This document shows positions 49,546-55,968 of a stretch of DNA of 56,064 nt, in pieces (the first letter of the stretch is position 1; every line of letters starts with the position of its first letter). The notes under the pieces are model-generated. The model was not told the origin of the DNA and ran no database searches. It saw nothing but the letters and a program-made list of their open reading frames with translations. The stretch spans positions 1-56,064 of the forward strand of contig JADLDY010000026.1 in the NCBI GenBank assembly GCA_020846435.1, written 5' to 3'. This DNA is from Deltaproteobacteria bacterium. Lineage in GTDB: Bacteria > Desulfobacterota > GWC2-55-46. A program made the position numbers and the translations under genes.

Positions 49546-52053
49546 ATGTTCCTTAAGAGATGGATACACTGGGCCGTTTTCGCTGTCATGTTCTTCATGA
49601 CGGTCATCGTCTGGCGCGCTCTGGTCAATTCCGAGAGGGATGCCCTTTCAAACCATGTGGCTGCCACAGCCTCGTCCGCGAGGGATTTTCTGAGGGACGA
49701 GCTCGAAGGTGACGCGGAGTCCATCTCCGGGCTTGGAAAGCGTTGGGAGTCAAGGGAAGGCCCTTACGGGGTTGAATGGCAAAGGGATGTTCTCCTTCAA
49801 CTTGAAGGCGAGCCTGAGTCCCTTGGAGTTGTATGGTTCGGACGAGGCCGCGAGGTCTTGTCCGTTGTCCCTGAGGGGGCCGCGGTTCCAGTCGATTTCA
49901 GCGCTGGCGGCCCGGTGTCAACGGTGTTTACTGAAGCTGGCGCGGGGAAGTCTGGAGCCGTCTTTTCACAGTTCAAGCTCGCGGGTGGGCGTCCCGGCTT
50001 CATGATAGGGGCGCCTCTGTGGTTCGACGGCAAGTTCCGGGGCGTCATAGCCGGGTTTTTCGACAGCCGCGAGTGCGTGCGCAACGCGCTCACCGACACC
50101 CGCCACGAGTGGGTGGGCTACTCCTTTGCCGTGACCTCCGGGAACTCCGAGCTTTACAGGAGCGGCGTCGAGCCTGTCAACGAATGGGCTCGGGAGCTTC
50201 CCGTGGGCGTGTCCTCCTTTGACTGGAAGGTGTCGGTCTGGCCCGGCGAAGAGGTTGTCCGCGAGCACATAACAGCGCTGCCGCATGCCATCTTCGCTCT
50301 CGGCACTGTAAGTTCCTTTTTTGTCTCAACGCTCCTGTACTTCGTCCAGATGAACAGGCGCAGGCGCAAGGAGCTTGAGAACGCCAACAGGCTCCTTGGC
50401 GCCGAGGCGGTCCAGAGGAGCCGGACAGAGGACGAGCTCAGGAGGAGCGAAGAGAAGTTCAGGGCCCTCGTCGAGACGATGAGCGACTGGATCTGGGAGA
50501 TGGACGTGAACGCCAGGTACACGTACGTGAGCCCGCGGGCCGCGGCTATCACGGGTTACGGCCTCAAGGAACTCCTCGGCAGGCGCCCCTGGGAGTTCAT
50601 GCCGCCGAATGAGGCGGACAGGTTTAAAACGGAGTTCTACCGGCTCTGCCGCGCCAGAGAGCCGTTCAGCCTTCTTGAGAACGTGAACATGAGGAAGGAC
50701 GGCTCCTTCATCGTGATGGAGACGAGCGGCACTCCGGTCTTCGGCAGTGACGGAGAGTTCGCCGGGTACATCGGCGTTCACAGGAACGTCACCAAGAGGA
50801 AGAAGGCCGAGGACGACCTTAAAAGGAGCAACGAGAGGCTCGAGAACGCCCAGCGCATCGCGAAGATGGGCAGCTGGGAGTGGGACATAGAAACGGACGA
50901 GCTCCACTGGTCCGACGAGATATACAGGATGTTCGGCGTGAGCCCCGAGGACTTCGGTGCGACGTACGAGGCGTTCTTAAGCTTCGTCCATCCCGAGGAC
51001 AGGATGTCCGTGCACAGGAGCGTGACAGAGGCGCTGACGCTCAGGAAGCCCTACTCCATAGAGCACAGGATACTGCTCGCGGACGGCACGTCCAGGGTGG
51101 TGCACGAGCAGGGCGAGGTCAGGTTCAATGAGGCCGGAAGCCCTGTCGCCATGTCAGGCACCGTGCAGGACATCAGCGAAAGAAAGCAGATAGAAGAGCA
51201 GCTCAGGCTTTACAGGGAGCACCTCAGGGAGCTTGTCGAGGAGAGGACCGCCGAGCTCAACGGGCTCAACGAGAAGCTCAAGTTCGAGGTCGAGATAAGA
51301 AAGAAGGCCGAAGAGGCCGTCATAAGCATGAACGAGGCCCTTGAGAAAAGGGCTGTCGAGCTCGAGCGGGTCAACAAGGAGTTGGAGGCGTTCACCTACT
51401 CGGCCTCCCATGACCTGCAGGAGCCGTTGAGGGTCATATCAGGCTACATCCAGCTCCTCGGCAGGCGCTACAAGGGCAGGCTCGACAAGGACGCCGACGA
51501 GTTCATATCCTTTGCCGTGGACGGGGTCGCCAGGATGCAGAGGCTCATCGCCGACCTCCTGTCGTACTCGCGCGTCGGCAGGATAAGTTCGTTCGCGCCG
51601 GTCGATTTCGAGGCCGCGTTCCTGAGGGCCAAGGCGAACCTCCGGGTCGCGATAGAAGAGAGCGGCGCGGTCGTCCGGCACGGGGCCCTGCCCACCATCA
51701 TGGCGGACGAATCGCAGATAGAGCAGCTCTTGATGAACCTCCTCAACAACGCCATAAAGTACAGGGGGGACGCTATCCCGCTCGTGACTGTAAACGCTGA
51801 AAAAGTTGACGGCGAGTGGCTTTTTTCCGTCACGGACAACGGCATAGGCATAGACCCGAGGTACTCCGAGCAGGTCTTCGACATATTCAAGAGGCTCCAC
51901 GGCAGCGCCGAGTACCCCGGCACGGGAATAGGCCTTTCAATCTGCAAAAAAGTCGTCGAGAACCACGGCGGCCGTATCTGGGTGGAATCGCTCCCAGGGG
52001 CCGGCTCGACCTTTTATTTCACGATACCGGGAAAAGAACCTGATGATGAGTGA
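49546..52053 (+). CDS. membrane multi-PAS sensor histidine kinase
   Basis: An 835-residue kinase. The first membrane helix (WIHWAVFAVMFFMTVIVWRAL) is followed by a periplasmic sensor domain (about 30-245) and the second helix (AIFALGTVSSFFVSTLLYFV). PAS 1 (about 300-420) ends GVHRNVTKRKKAE and PAS 2 (about 430-545) ends TVQDISERKQIE. A coiled coil (HLRELVEERTAELNGLNEKLKFEVEIRKKAEEAV) leads to HisKA, with the phospho-His in FTYSASHDLQEPLRVISGY. HATPase_c has MNLLNNAIKYR, DNGIGIDPRY and GTGIGLSICKK. This kinase class (bacteriophytochrome-like output) typically signals through a single-domain receiver, exactly what follows. Stimulus unknown. Confidence 0.94.
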   Translation: MFLKRWIHWAVFAVMFFMTVIVWRALVNSERDALSNHVAATASSARDFLRDELEGDAESISGLGKRWESREGPYGVEWQRDVLLQLEGEPESLGVVWFGRGREVLSVVPEGAAVPVDFSAGGPVSTVFTEAGAGKSGAVFSQFKLAGGRPGFMIGAPLWFDGKFRGVIAGFFDSRECVRNALTDTRHEWVGYSFAVTSGNSELYRSGVEPVNEWARELPVGVSSFDWKVSVWPGEEVVREHITALPHAIFALGTVSSFFVSTLLYFVQMNRRRRKELENANRLLGAEAVQRSRTEDELRRSEEKFRALVETMSDWIWEMDVNARYTYVSPRAAAITGYGLKELLGRRPWEFMPPNEADRFKTEFYRLCRAREPFSLLENVNMRKDGSFIVMETSGTPVFGSDGEFAGYIGVHRNVTKRKKAEDDLKRSNERLENAQRIAKMGSWEWDIETDELHWSDEIYRMFGVSPEDFGATYEAFLSFVHPEDRMSVHRSVTEALTLRKPYSIEHRILLADGTSRVVHEQGEVRFNEAGSPVAMSGTVQDISERKQIEEQLRLYREHLRELVEERTAELNGLNEKLKFEVEIRKKAEEAVISMNEALEKRAVELERVNKELEAFTYSASHDLQEPLRVISGYIQLLGRRYKGRLDKDADEFISFAVDGVARMQRLIADLLSYSRVGRISSFAPVDFEAAFLRAKANLRVAIEESGAVVRHGALPTIMADESQIEQLLMNLLNNAIKYRGDAIPLVTVNAEKVDGEWLFSVTDNGIGIDPRYSEQVFDIFKRLHGSAEYPGTGIGLSICKKVVENHGGRIWVESLPGAGSTFYFTIPGKEPDDE

Positions 52054-52486
52054 AGCCGCGAGGATGGTAGACATACTGATGGTGGAGGACAACCCCCATG
52101 ACGTAAGGCTCACGATGGAGGCTTTCAAGGACGCAGGGGTCCCGAACGTCCTGAGCGTCGCGAAAGACGGCGAGGAGGCGTTGAGGTTCCTGAGGCGCGA
52201 GGGTCCTTACTTGGATGCGCCGAGGCCAGACCTGATACTCCTTGACCTGAACCTGCCGAGAAAGAGCGGCAGGGAGGTCCTTGAAGAGATAAAAAAGGAC
52301 CCTGACCTGAAACGCATACCGATAGTCGTGCTCACGACTTCGGGGAATGAAGAGGACATCCGCCTGGCTTACGAGCTCCATGTGAACGCCTATATAACAA
52401 AGCCTATGGACCTTGATCATTTCATCAGGATAGTGGGGGCGGTGGGGGACTTCTGGCTCAGGGCCGCGGTCCTCCCGCCGAAATAG
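52043..52486 (+). CDS. single-domain receiver (Rcp1-like response regulator)
   Basis: A 147-residue receiver without output domain. The acidic pocket is VEDNPHD, the phospho-acceptor Asp is in PDLILLDLNLPRKSGREVLEEIK, T/S in VVLTTSG and Lys in AYITKPMDLDHF. The long alpha4 loop (SGNEEDIRLAYELHVNAY) is the Rcp1 type, partners of phytochrome-like kinases. It starts within the end of the kinase gene (11-base overlap) and ends 1 base before the sigma-54 activator, so kinase, receiver and activator form one operon and likely one phosphorelay. Confidence 0.95.
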   Translation: MMSEAARMVDILMVEDNPHDVRLTMEAFKDAGVPNVLSVAKDGEEALRFLRREGPYLDAPRPDLILLDLNLPRKSGREVLEEIKKDPDLKRIPIVVLTTSGNEEDIRLAYELHVNAYITKPMDLDHFIRIVGAVGDFWLRAAVLPPK

Positions 52487-52487
52487 C

Positions 52488-53900
52488 ATGGAGATAATGC
52501 CGTTTCTTAAAATACTCCTCGTCGAGGACAGCCCGGCCGACTCTCGCCTCCTGTGGGAGATGCTCCGCGAGTCCGGCATAAAGAACAGGTTTTCGCTCGA
52601 CCCGGCCGTGACGCTCAAGGACGCCTTGAGCCAGCTCTCTTCGAGGAAGTTCGACCTCGTGCTCCTCGACCTCATGCTCCCTGACTCCTCCGGCCTCGAC
52701 ACCTTCCGCGCCGTGCACAAGGCCTACCCTGACGTCCCTGTCGTGCTTTTGACTGGCCTTTCCGACGAGACTCTTGCCGCGAGGGCCGTGAGAGAGGGCG
52801 CGCAGGACTACCTCGTCAAGGGGCAGGTCGACGCCGCCGTGCTCGTGCGCTCGATGAGGTACGCCATAGAGCGGCATGTCGCTGACAGGAGCTTCAAGCC
52901 AGCGCACAAGGCTTCGGAGGACGTGGTGATGCTCTGCCCGGACATGATAGGGTCTTCACCCGCCTTGAAGGAGGTGAGGAGCCTCATAGAGACGGTCGCG
53001 AGGACTTCCAATACATCCGTCCTCATAATGGGCGAGACCGGGACCGGCAAGGAACTGGTCGCCAACTCCATACATTATCTCAGCAGCCGCAGGTACGGCC
53101 CGTTCATAAAGCTCAACTGCAGCGCAATCCCGGATACGCTCATGGAATCCGAGCTCTTCGGCTATGAGAAGGGGGCCTTCACCGACGCGCGCCAGTCCAA
53201 GAAGGGCCTTTTCGAGCTGGCCGACGGCGGCACGATATTCCTCGACGAGATAGGGGACATGGACCTGAGGCTCCAGCCCAAGCTCCTTCAGATACTCGAG
53301 AACAGGACATTGCGCAAGCTTGGCGGGGTCGCTGACATGAAGATAGACGTCAGGGTCATCGCCGCGACCAATGTCGATCTTTCGGAGATGGTCCGCGCCA
53401 AACGCTTCAGGGAAGACCTGTATTACAGGCTTAATGTCATGGCGATAAACCTGCCGCCGCTCCGTGAGCGCAGGGAGGACATCGTCGCCCTCGCGGAGCA
53501 CTTCATCAACGAGAACAAGGACTTCGAGGGGGAGGAGGGGCAGGTAAAAAAACTCTGCAAGGAAAGCGCATCCGCGCTCGAGAATTACGGCTGGCCCGGC
53601 AACATAAGGGAGCTCAAGAACATCATCGAGAGGGCCATGATACTCGCCGGGCCGGACGAGATAAGGTCCGAGCACCTGCAGATCTCCGCGGCTCCGTCCG
53701 TCGCCCCGTCAAAAGAGGAGGGGCCGCCAGGGTATTCGATGGATATGTCTCTTGACGACCTTGAAAAGGCCCATATAAGGAATGTCCTCGAAAAAACAGG
53801 CGGCAACATAACGCACGCCTCAAAGGTCCTTGGCATCTCCCGCTACACCCTCAGGGAAAAACTGAAAAAGTACGGGCTCAGGGAAGCAGAAGACGCGTAA
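52488..53900 (+). CDS. NtrC-like sigma-54 activator with receiver domain and GAFTDA loop
   Basis: A 470-residue enhancer-binding protein. The receiver domain (D61 in FDLVLLDLMLPDSSG) is followed by the AAA+ domain: Walker A GETGTGKE (about 182), the sigma-54 contact loop reading GAFTDA (about 230-235) instead of GAFTGA, Walker B TIFLDEIGD and the arginine finger region YRLNV. A Fis-type HTH (NVLEKTGGNITHASKVLGISRYTLREKLKKYG) closes it. It shares an operon with the kinase and receiver. Three palindromes and a sigma-54 promoter lie immediately downstream, so it probably activates the REC-PilZ gene. The Asp in the loop may alter sigma-54 engagement. Confidence 0.95.
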   Translation: MEIMPFLKILLVEDSPADSRLLWEMLRESGIKNRFSLDPAVTLKDALSQLSSRKFDLVLLDLMLPDSSGLDTFRAVHKAYPDVPVVLLTGLSDETLAARAVREGAQDYLVKGQVDAAVLVRSMRYAIERHVADRSFKPAHKASEDVVMLCPDMIGSSPALKEVRSLIETVARTSNTSVLIMGETGTGKELVANSIHYLSSRRYGPFIKLNCSAIPDTLMESELFGYEKGAFTDARQSKKGLFELADGGTIFLDEIGDMDLRLQPKLLQILENRTLRKLGGVADMKIDVRVIAATNVDLSEMVRAKRFREDLYYRLNVMAINLPPLRERREDIVALAEHFINENKDFEGEEGQVKKLCKESASALENYGWPGNIRELKNIIERAMILAGPDEIRSEHLQISAAPSVAPSKEEGPPGYSMDMSLDDLEKAHIRNVLEKTGGNITHASKVLGISRYTLREKLKKYGLREAEDA

Positions 53901-53944: not shown

Positions 53945-54002
53945 TGATAAGTTTCTTACCGGCATGGTAATAAACTTATCGCCTAATGGTAAGTTTCTTA
54001 CC
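53945..54002. promoter_or_regulatory. three spaced palindromes, candidate enhancer sites
   Basis: TGATAAGTTTCTTACC (53945-53960), TGGTAATAAACTTATC (53965-53980, opposite orientation) and TGGTAAGTTTCTTACC (53987-54002) are variants of GGTAAG-N3-CTTACC. Centres lie 20 and 22 bases apart, about two helical turns. They lie 90-150 bases upstream of the sigma-54 start point, the normal enhancer range. The adjacent NtrC-like activator is the obvious candidate binder. Confidence 0.75.
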
Positions 54003-54064
54003 GCTTCTCCTCCTTCAAACCCACATTTCAAACCTAACTATTTGAAAACACAGTTATTTTTTTA

Positions 54065-54082
54065 TTGGCATGGCTGTTGCAA
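54065..54082 (+). promoter_or_regulatory. sigma-54 promoter of the REC-PilZ gene
   Basis: TTGGCATGGCTGTTGCAA has -24 GG (54067-54068) and -12 GC (54079-54080) exactly 12 bases apart and close to consensus. The leader to the ATG is about 70 bases. Confidence 0.85.
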
Positions 54083-54162
54083 TTGTAATAGCTCATACGC
54101 TTGACGCCATAAAAAAATAAAGGAAGCCTTGCCTGAGTTTTTGCGAGGATTGGGAAAAATTA

Positions 54163-54831
54163 ATGGTTGATAGCCTCTGTAAGGTGCTGGTGGTCGATGA
54201 TGACAGGGTGATACGCGAAGTCTGCTCTGAAGCTCTCGCGTATGACGGTTATGCGGTCACTGTCGCTTCCGGCGGCTGGGACGCTCTCGGCCTTGTCAAC
54301 GGCAGTGAATGGGACCTTGTGGTAACCGACGTGAATATGCCCGGGCTCGACGGCATAGATTTTTACAGGGTAGCGGTGAGCCGCTCCCCTGAGCTTGCCT
54401 CAAGGTTCGTCTTCATGACCGGGGATCAGACCTCGGCCAGGACAATAGAAGCGATGGGCGCCAGGCTCGTGAGAAAGCCTTTCAAGGTAAAAGAGCTGCT
54501 TGACGCGGCGTCTTCGGTCTTCCAATCCACGGATGCCAACAGGCGCCACAAGAGGCTGCCTGTTGCCAGATGCATGCAGGTGCGCATCAACGGGGCTGAC
54601 CTTGACGCAGTGGCGGAGGACTTCTCGCTCAACGGCATGAAAATAAGGTACGCGGGCGTTCCGTTCGAAAAAGGCCCCGTGCTCAGGATCTCGATAGACG
54701 CTTTGAACATCAGCACCGAGGCGCGGGTCGTATGGTCGGCTGCGTCTGCGTCTGAATCTTACTCAGGTGTGATTTTCGATAAGCCAGTTCCGGTGTCAGT
54801 ACTCGCGGGCCTGGCTTCAAACAGATTTTGA
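54163..54831 (+). CDS. receiver-PilZ protein
   Basis: A 222-residue protein. The receiver (DDDR pocket, phospho-acceptor in WDLVVTDVNMPGLDG, Lys in RLVRKPFKVKEL) is joined to a C-terminal PilZ domain: RRHKRLPVARCMQVRI, then EDFSLNGMKIRY, supplying the RxxxR and (D/N)xSxxG c-di-GMP-binding motifs (here RRHKR and DFSLNG). It should couple phosphorylation to c-di-GMP sensing. A sigma-54 promoter and three palindromes precede it. The sigma-factor gene follows after 25 bases. The HD-GYP, GGDEF and PilZ proteins in this window form a local c-di-GMP network. Confidence 0.9.
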   Translation: MVDSLCKVLVVDDDRVIREVCSEALAYDGYAVTVASGGWDALGLVNGSEWDLVVTDVNMPGLDGIDFYRVAVSRSPELASRFVFMTGDQTSARTIEAMGARLVRKPFKVKELLDAASSVFQSTDANRRHKRLPVARCMQVRINGADLDAVAEDFSLNGMKIRYAGVPFEKGPVLRISIDALNISTEARVVWSAASASESYSGVIFDKPVPVSVLAGLASNRF

Positions 54832-54856: not shown

Positions 54857-55897
54857 ATGCTTAGAAGCACTGTAAGGACAACTGAAAGAAAGCTGGCGGT
54901 AAGGACAAGGACCAAAAAGAGCGTTTCCCTGGAGACTGCCCAGACGTGGCCCCTCCCTTTTACTGAAGCGCCGGAGACGGTAAAGACGGTAAAGACAAAG
55001 ACGGTAAAAAGGTCTGTCCAGGTGGTCAGGGACGAAGACGAAGGCCGCGAGACGCAGAGCGCGCCCCAGTCCCCTGACTCCATAAACATCTACTTCAGGG
55101 AGATAAAGAAGTACAAGCTCCTCAAGGGGCCCGAAGAGATCGCCCTGGCGAAGAAAGTCGCCAAAGGCGACAAGGACGCGAGGAAGACGATGATAGAGGC
55201 CAACCTCCGCCTTGTCGTGAACATAGCGAAGAAGTACATGAACCGGGGGCTCCCGTTCCAGGACATCATAGACGAAGGCAACATAGGCCTCATAAAGGCG
55301 GTCGAGAGGTTCAAGGCGAAGATGGGCTGCAGGTTCTCTACCTACGCCACCTACTGGATAAGGCAGACCATTGAGAGGGCGCTGGCCAACAAGGGCAACA
55401 TGATAAGGCTCCCCATACACATAGTGACCGACATGTCCAAGATGGAGAGGGCGGCAAGGGAGTTTCGCGTACGCTCCAACAGGGAGCCGAGCTCGGCCGA
55501 GCTCTCCGAGAAGACCGGGCTTTCCGGAAGGTACGTTAAAAAGCTCGAGGTGATCAGCAAAAGGACCCTCTCTCTCGAGTCCACGGCGCACGAAAGCACG
55601 GACCAGACCCTGCTTGAGAGCATAGAGGACGACAGGACGCCTGCTCCGATGGACCTCATACACGAGGCGGTCGTCGCTGACAGGGTGTCGAGCTGGCTTG
55701 AGATGCTCGACGAGAACGAACGCAAGGTCCTGACGCTGAGGTTCGGCATAGGCGACTACTCGCCCAAGACCCTTGAGGTCATAGGCAAGAAGTTCGGGGT
55801 CACGAGAGAAAGGGTTCGCCAGATAGAGGAGAAGGCCCTGGGTAAATTGAGGGAGATAGCCGGGAGGACGCAGAGCACGGCGGCTGACTTTCTGTAA
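54857..55897 (+). CDS. sigma-70 family factor, RpoS-like
   Basis: A 346-residue group-1/2 sigma factor. After an 80-residue variable N-terminus (Lys/Thr-rich, VKTVKTKTVKR) come region 1.2 SINIYFREIKKYKLL, region 2 ANLRLVVNIAKKYMNRGLPFQDIIDEGNIGLIKAVERFKAKMGCRFSTYATYWIRQTIERALANKGNMIRLP, region 3 and region 4 (VLTLRFGIGDYSPKTLEVIGKKFGVTRERVRQIEEKALGKLRE). The NKGNMIRLPIH segment resembles RpoS. It lacks the long non-conserved region of RpoD. AGGAGG precedes the ATG. It may be read from the sigma-54 promoter upstream of REC-PilZ, a sigma cascade. Its target promoters cannot be inferred. Confidence 0.92.
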   Translation: MLRSTVRTTERKLAVRTRTKKSVSLETAQTWPLPFTEAPETVKTVKTKTVKRSVQVVRDEDEGRETQSAPQSPDSINIYFREIKKYKLLKGPEEIALAKKVAKGDKDARKTMIEANLRLVVNIAKKYMNRGLPFQDIIDEGNIGLIKAVERFKAKMGCRFSTYATYWIRQTIERALANKGNMIRLPIHIVTDMSKMERAAREFRVRSNREPSSAELSEKTGLSGRYVKKLEVISKRTLSLESTAHESTDQTLLESIEDDRTPAPMDLIHEAVVADRVSSWLEMLDENERKVLTLRFGIGDYSPKTLEVIGKKFGVTRERVRQIEEKALGKLREIAGRTQSTAADFL

Positions 55898-55925: not shown

Positions 55926-55958
55926 ATAAAAAAAGGACGCGTCGTGCGTCCTTTTTTT
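55926..55958 (+). terminator. terminator after the sigma factor gene
   Basis: AAAGGACGC/GCGTCCTTT stem with a GTCGT loop, followed by T7. Confidence 0.9.
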
Positions 55959-55968
55959 ATTCTCCAGT

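Follow-up and report, generated by a model that had tools for sequence, protein, structure and literature searches.

Control of a second sigma factor by σ54 is known from Borrelia, in the form of the Rrp2-RpoN-RpoS pathway (PMC3037356), and from Pseudomonas syringae, in which the σ54 activators HrpR and HrpS switch on the alternative sigma factor HrpL (PMC8657755). In addition, a 2025 survey lists σ70/σ32 genes (COG0568) among those associated with σ54 (PMC12316311). A limited, non-exhaustive literature search retrieved no description of a cassette made up of a kinase, a receiver, an activator and a sigma factor. Here we describe a locus of this composition in a window of 56,064 nucleotides, by which we mean the whole stretch of DNA that was analysed.

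Results

Organisation of the locus

Three closely spaced genes on the plus strand lie upstream of the gap that holds the regulatory sites, and their kinase-receiver-activator order is repeated in most of the family loci read. The first gene of this sensor-activator operon (49546-52053) is an open reading frame for a PAS-domain histidine kinase with Pfam PAS, HisKA and HATPase_c matches. The second open reading frame (52043-52486) encodes a single-domain response regulator (PF00072), a small receiver that also precedes the activator in related loci, and the third gene (52488-53900) encodes a REC-AAA+-Fis σ54 activator (PF00072; PF00158, match 1.6e-69; PF02954). With a PF00158 domain carrying a GAFTGA-type loop, a receiver and a C-terminal Fis-type helix-turn-helix (HTH), the recognition helix of which reads SRYTLREK, the protein has the architecture of the σ54 enhancer-binding proteins. 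It is NtrC-like, not NtrC, and its score against the NtrC equivalog of NCBIfam (TIGR01818) is 369.3 bits, below the cut-off of 558.6. The loop reads GAFTDA instead of GAFTGA in the activator and its orthologues and is invariant in the alignment; a study of Desulfovibrio vulgaris σ54 activators lists GAFTDA as a tolerated variant that keeps activity (PMC4641369). The 23 orthologous and related activators placed in a tree, G047 included, make up a single clade (99/100). Fis-HTH activator-type frames in the genome to which the window belongs (G000) number 13, with loops of the GAFT or GSFT type, and the helix of the activator described here recurs in none of the other 12 that were found there.

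Between the activator gene and the gene for a REC-PilZ protein lies a gap of 262 bp, which houses three 15-bp palindromes and a -24/-12 element. An earlier note on this DNA had reported three recurring sites of the GGTAAG-N3-CTTACC type, and these are real: the predicted activator sites 1 (GATAAGTTTCTTACC, 53946-53960), 2 (GGTAATAAACTTATC, 53966-53980) and 3 (GGTAAGTTTCTTACC, 53988-54002), all unstranded, depart from this pattern by one, two and no mismatches, only site 3 being an exact copy, and the sites are conserved in relatives. Their centres (53953, 53973 and 53995) are 20 and 22 bp apart, as had been claimed, and the centre of site 3 lies 72 bp before the GG of the -24 element. The σ54 promoter that had been proposed between the activator and REC-PilZ genes is likewise predicted by us, at 54065-54081 on the plus strand (TTGGCATGGCTGTTGCA), with an intact GG-N10-GC core and a single departure from TGGCACGN4TTGCW; transcription from it would start near 54092. 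By itself the -24/-12 pattern lacks significance in a stretch of 56 kb (8 matches against 7.4 expected), and both the position and the sequence of this element are kept in relatives. We compared the gap with 20,000 dinucleotide shuffles of its 262 bp: a single one contained at least three GRTAA-N5-TTAYC sites, this being the consensus that fits the sites of relatives, and 11 contained a family of three palindromes of any kind, with no motif named. Together with these shuffles, the conservation of the sites across relatives makes an origin as a chance repeat untenable. A plasmid search gave no match.

Conservation of the sites and the promoter

The layout, in which the activator gene is followed by two or three GRTAA-N5-TTAYC sites, is kept in about 26 orthologous loci; the loci of relatives were found by homology and are those of 'Deltaproteobacteria' metagenome-assembled genomes. 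The centre of the last site lies 69-73 bp from the GG of the -24 element in the 21 family loci measured, a tally from which extra two-mismatch windows and a false second promoter in some rows were set aside. Within the genus, the sites and the promoter form conserved islands of the gap. The earlier note had pointed out two finer features, the location of the sites on one helix face and their alternate orientation; both apply to this genome, and neither is conserved among relatives. Spacings range from 19 to 25 bp, with a resultant of 0.38 when 33 of them are projected onto a helix of 10.5 bp per turn, and helical phasing is therefore no conserved requirement; direct centres in genus g2 rule out alternating orientation as a conserved trait.

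The genome scan for site clusters that had been suggested found the strict two-site pattern in 17 of the 48 genomes of the order, at one locus per genome, whereas the reversed-pattern control gave zero. Orthologues of the activator (E below 1e-200) are present in 22 of the 48 genomes, and all 17 pattern-bearing genomes are among them (17/22 carriers versus 0/26 non-carriers; Fisher 6e-9). The activator is also present in G023, G026, G031 and G037, in which the sites miss only the strict pattern, and in G019, in which they are degenerate. A scan of the phylum (395 genomes) yielded a single two-site match outside the family, and this lies inside a coding frame. The occurrence of the two-site pattern once per genome rules against a wide regulon; when a single site with a promoter was searched for, a few further candidate matches came up. 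Single GRTAAG-N3-CTTAYC sites with at most one mismatch occur at 33 places in the whole genome G000 versus 5 for the reversed pattern; that coding bias lies behind this difference is only a guess.

Genes downstream of the promoter

In the window, the first gene after the promoter (54163-54831, plus strand) encodes the REC-PilZ protein (PF00072, PF07238), which has the RxxxR and [DN]xSxxG motifs of PilZ c-di-GMP receptors and is predicted to bind c-di-GMP; R127, R131, S155 and G158 are invariant in 13 homologues. The sigma gene (54857-55897, plus strand) begins 25 bp further on, and its product, with regions 1.2, 2, 3 and 4, is a member of the σ70 family. Its best NCBIfam match is rpoS (TIGR02394), but the score of 294.5 bits is below the cut-off of 378.7, and we therefore call the sigma factor RpoS-like. 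After the sigma gene lies a terminator-like hairpin with a T tract (55929-55959, plus strand), recognised by eye without a tool scan.

For comparison across relatives, we tallied 26 orthologous loci, of which 22 are from the family and four from a second family, f9; some are cut by contig ends. REC-PilZ comes first after the promoter in 14 of these loci; its place is taken by a bare receiver in two (G019, G024) and by a SpoVG-like gene in another two (G015, G018), while in the other eight there is no frame of about 90 amino acids between promoter and sigma gene. SpoVG-family genes ahead of the sigma gene are located at L041:1042-1374 and L043:1674-2006. The sigma gene is found downstream of the promoter in 25/26 loci, the exception being G022, in which REC-PilZ has no sigma gene after it and the activator is on a different contig. 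A conserved -24/-12 element before the operon of the sigma gene, with the activator gene alongside, is likewise found in 25 of the 26 loci. Since REC-PilZ is optional and the sigma gene is so regularly present, the constant predicted target is the sigma factor, and the earlier proposal that the REC-PilZ gene is the target was half right. Many relatives have a second REC-PilZ-sigma pair, mostly with a -24/-12 element of its own and without GRTAA sites (L222 in G013:C39, L221 in G037:C1, and L017, L019, L023, L024, L027, L028, L030 and L031); upstream of the pair, L221 and L222 encode a receiver protein of a different type (328 and 518 aa).

Held-out family and sister activators

The four f9 orthologues (G435, G437, G438, G439) belong to another family of the same class and were found later, without being used in the definition of the motif. 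All four loci have sites, promoter and sigma gene, with two sites 24-25 bp apart and the last one 70-73 bp before the -24/-12 element; the sites are exact in G437 and have 1-2 mismatches in one or both in G435, G438 and G439. Related activators that come with different kinases face genes of a different kind, namely a porin in G047 and cytochrome-c-peroxidase-like genes (a label given from reading the sequence, without a family search) in G434, in G217 and at second copies in G435 and G439. Among these sister activators, the helix SRLTLREK (G434 and G047; loci L218 and L180) is accompanied by GRTAA half-sites, that is, sites of the GGTAA/GATAA type, and the helix ARQHLRKK (G217 and both second copies, in G435 and in G439; loci L216, L217 and L219) by GATAC-N5-GTATC sites, 71 bp from the GG. 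Sites of the GRTAA type too lie about 71 bp from the GG, so that the geometry is kept, except in G047, where the distance is 61 bp. The half-site thus varies with the recognition helix.

Alternative readings of the sites, the target and the promoter

The adjacent NtrC-like activator had been put forward as the natural ligand of the palindromes, and its co-occurrence with the sites, the held-out family, the fixed site-promoter distance and the covariation of helix and half-site all support this: the palindromes are very probably its predicted binding sites. Because the sites adjoin the activator gene, the co-occurrence could partly stem from shared inheritance of one locus, but this is disfavoured by the covariation of helix and half-site and by the fact that the target genes differ. 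Many dimeric regulators typically use palindromic 15-bp sites, and the palindromes might accordingly be operators of another, unlinked regulator, for example a repressor, acting on the σ54 promoter. We regard this as very unlikely, given that the sites track the activator gene across families, also before unrelated targets (G047, G434), and that the half-site shifts when the recognition helix of the activator shifts. An RNA hairpin or cruciform, for instance one that terminates or attenuates transcription of the activator gene, would account for the 15-nt inverted repeat formed by sites 1 and 2, which are complementary at 14/15 positions (93%) around a 5-nt loop. However, no terminator-like site and no Rfam match was found there, and the centres pair at 0/3 positions in G014, G015, G016, G018 and G036; unpaired centres between arms that pair anyway are as expected of separate palindromes, and we rejected the hairpin as having a negligible chance of being correct.

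With the activator as the favoured ligand, the choice of target can be weighed in the same manner. If REC-PilZ, as a c-di-GMP output, were the functional target and the sigma gene were reached by incidental read-through, its place as the first gene here and in just over half of the loci and the conservation of its PilZ motifs would be explained; its replacement or absence in 12/26 loci, against 25 in which the sigma gene is kept, makes this improbable, and we retain the sigma factor as the constant target. The promoter raises a separate question, as neither rpoN nor hprK, its neighbour in G013, was found in the G000 assembly, which is rated 100% complete. From this it could be argued that the lineage lost rpoN and that the promoter is a relic, to which we assign a very slim chance: the promoter core is intact, the 13 activator-type frames are retained, and rpoN is present in all three genomes of the same genus. 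In the order, 45/48 genomes have rpoN. An assembly gap is the likelier reason for the missing rpoN, because of these same-genus genomes and the retained activator-type frames.

Discussion

The sequence directly shows the order and domains of the genes, the sites and the promoter, how these are conserved and co-occur with the activator, and the helix/half-site covariation, and we consider it highly likely that the kinase-receiver-activator cassette described here drives a cascade from σ54 to an RpoS-like sigma factor through the predicted enhancer-promoter. In this proposal, the PAS histidine kinase, perhaps together with the small receiver protein, would set the phosphorylation of the NtrC-like activator, which would bind the two to three GRTAA-N5-TTAYC palindromes beyond the end of its own gene and then oligomerise. 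Some 70 bp downstream, at the -24/-12 element, it would touch σ54-RNA polymerase, and ATP hydrolysis would open the promoter complex. REC-PilZ and the RpoS-like sigma factor would be co-transcribed from this putative σ54-dependent promoter, and the sigma factor may then steer polymerase to a regulon of its own, giving a cascade from σ54 to a σ70-family factor. A wider idea, which we hold to be rather unlikely, is that a two-component-σ54-RpoS-like sigma arrangement recurs in the lineage, in which there is a second REC-PilZ-sigma unit with an activator and a -24/-12 element of its own, and that the presumably co-transcribed REC-PilZ ties the sigma factor to phosphorylation and c-di-GMP, for example by direct contact.

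If correct, the proposal would define a complete set, from the regulator and its DNA code to promoter and target, on the basis of sequence from an uncultured lineage of deltaproteobacteria. It would also place an RpoS-like sigma factor under σ54 with explicit enhancers, outside the pathogens that provide the best-described cascades of this kind. The natural switch of helix and half-site at fixed geometry offers a ready test of how Fis-type HTH domains read DNA.

HrpL of P. syringae is an ECF sigma factor. It is a sigma factor of type III secretion, whereas the sigma factor described here has regions 1.2-4. The two systems are alike in that σ54 activators turn on the gene for an alternative sigma factor, but HrpR and HrpS are without a receiver domain (PMC8657755) and the activator here is a response regulator. 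The activator shares its REC-AAA+-Fis architecture with NtrC and with σ54 activators of D. vulgaris, for which the source also describes palindromic sites upstream of -24/-12 elements, often beside the activator gene, and the occurrence of GAFTDA (PMC4641369). Unlike the present locus, the main text of that source gives no GTAA/TTAC motif and, in the part consulted, names no sigma-factor target (PMC4641369). The system of Borrelia burgdorferi resembles ours in that a response-regulator activator with σ54 drives a gene for an RpoS-type sigma factor and in that the activator gene is immediately preceded by a kinase gene (PMC1976401, PMC3037356). It differs in that Rrp2 activated rpoS without an enhancer, with no bound site upstream of rpoS (PMC1976401), and in that BosR is also required (PMC1976401, PMC3037356). 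Set against Rrp2, which we compared by description only, the cassette described here carries explicit conserved sites beside its activator and sigma genes.
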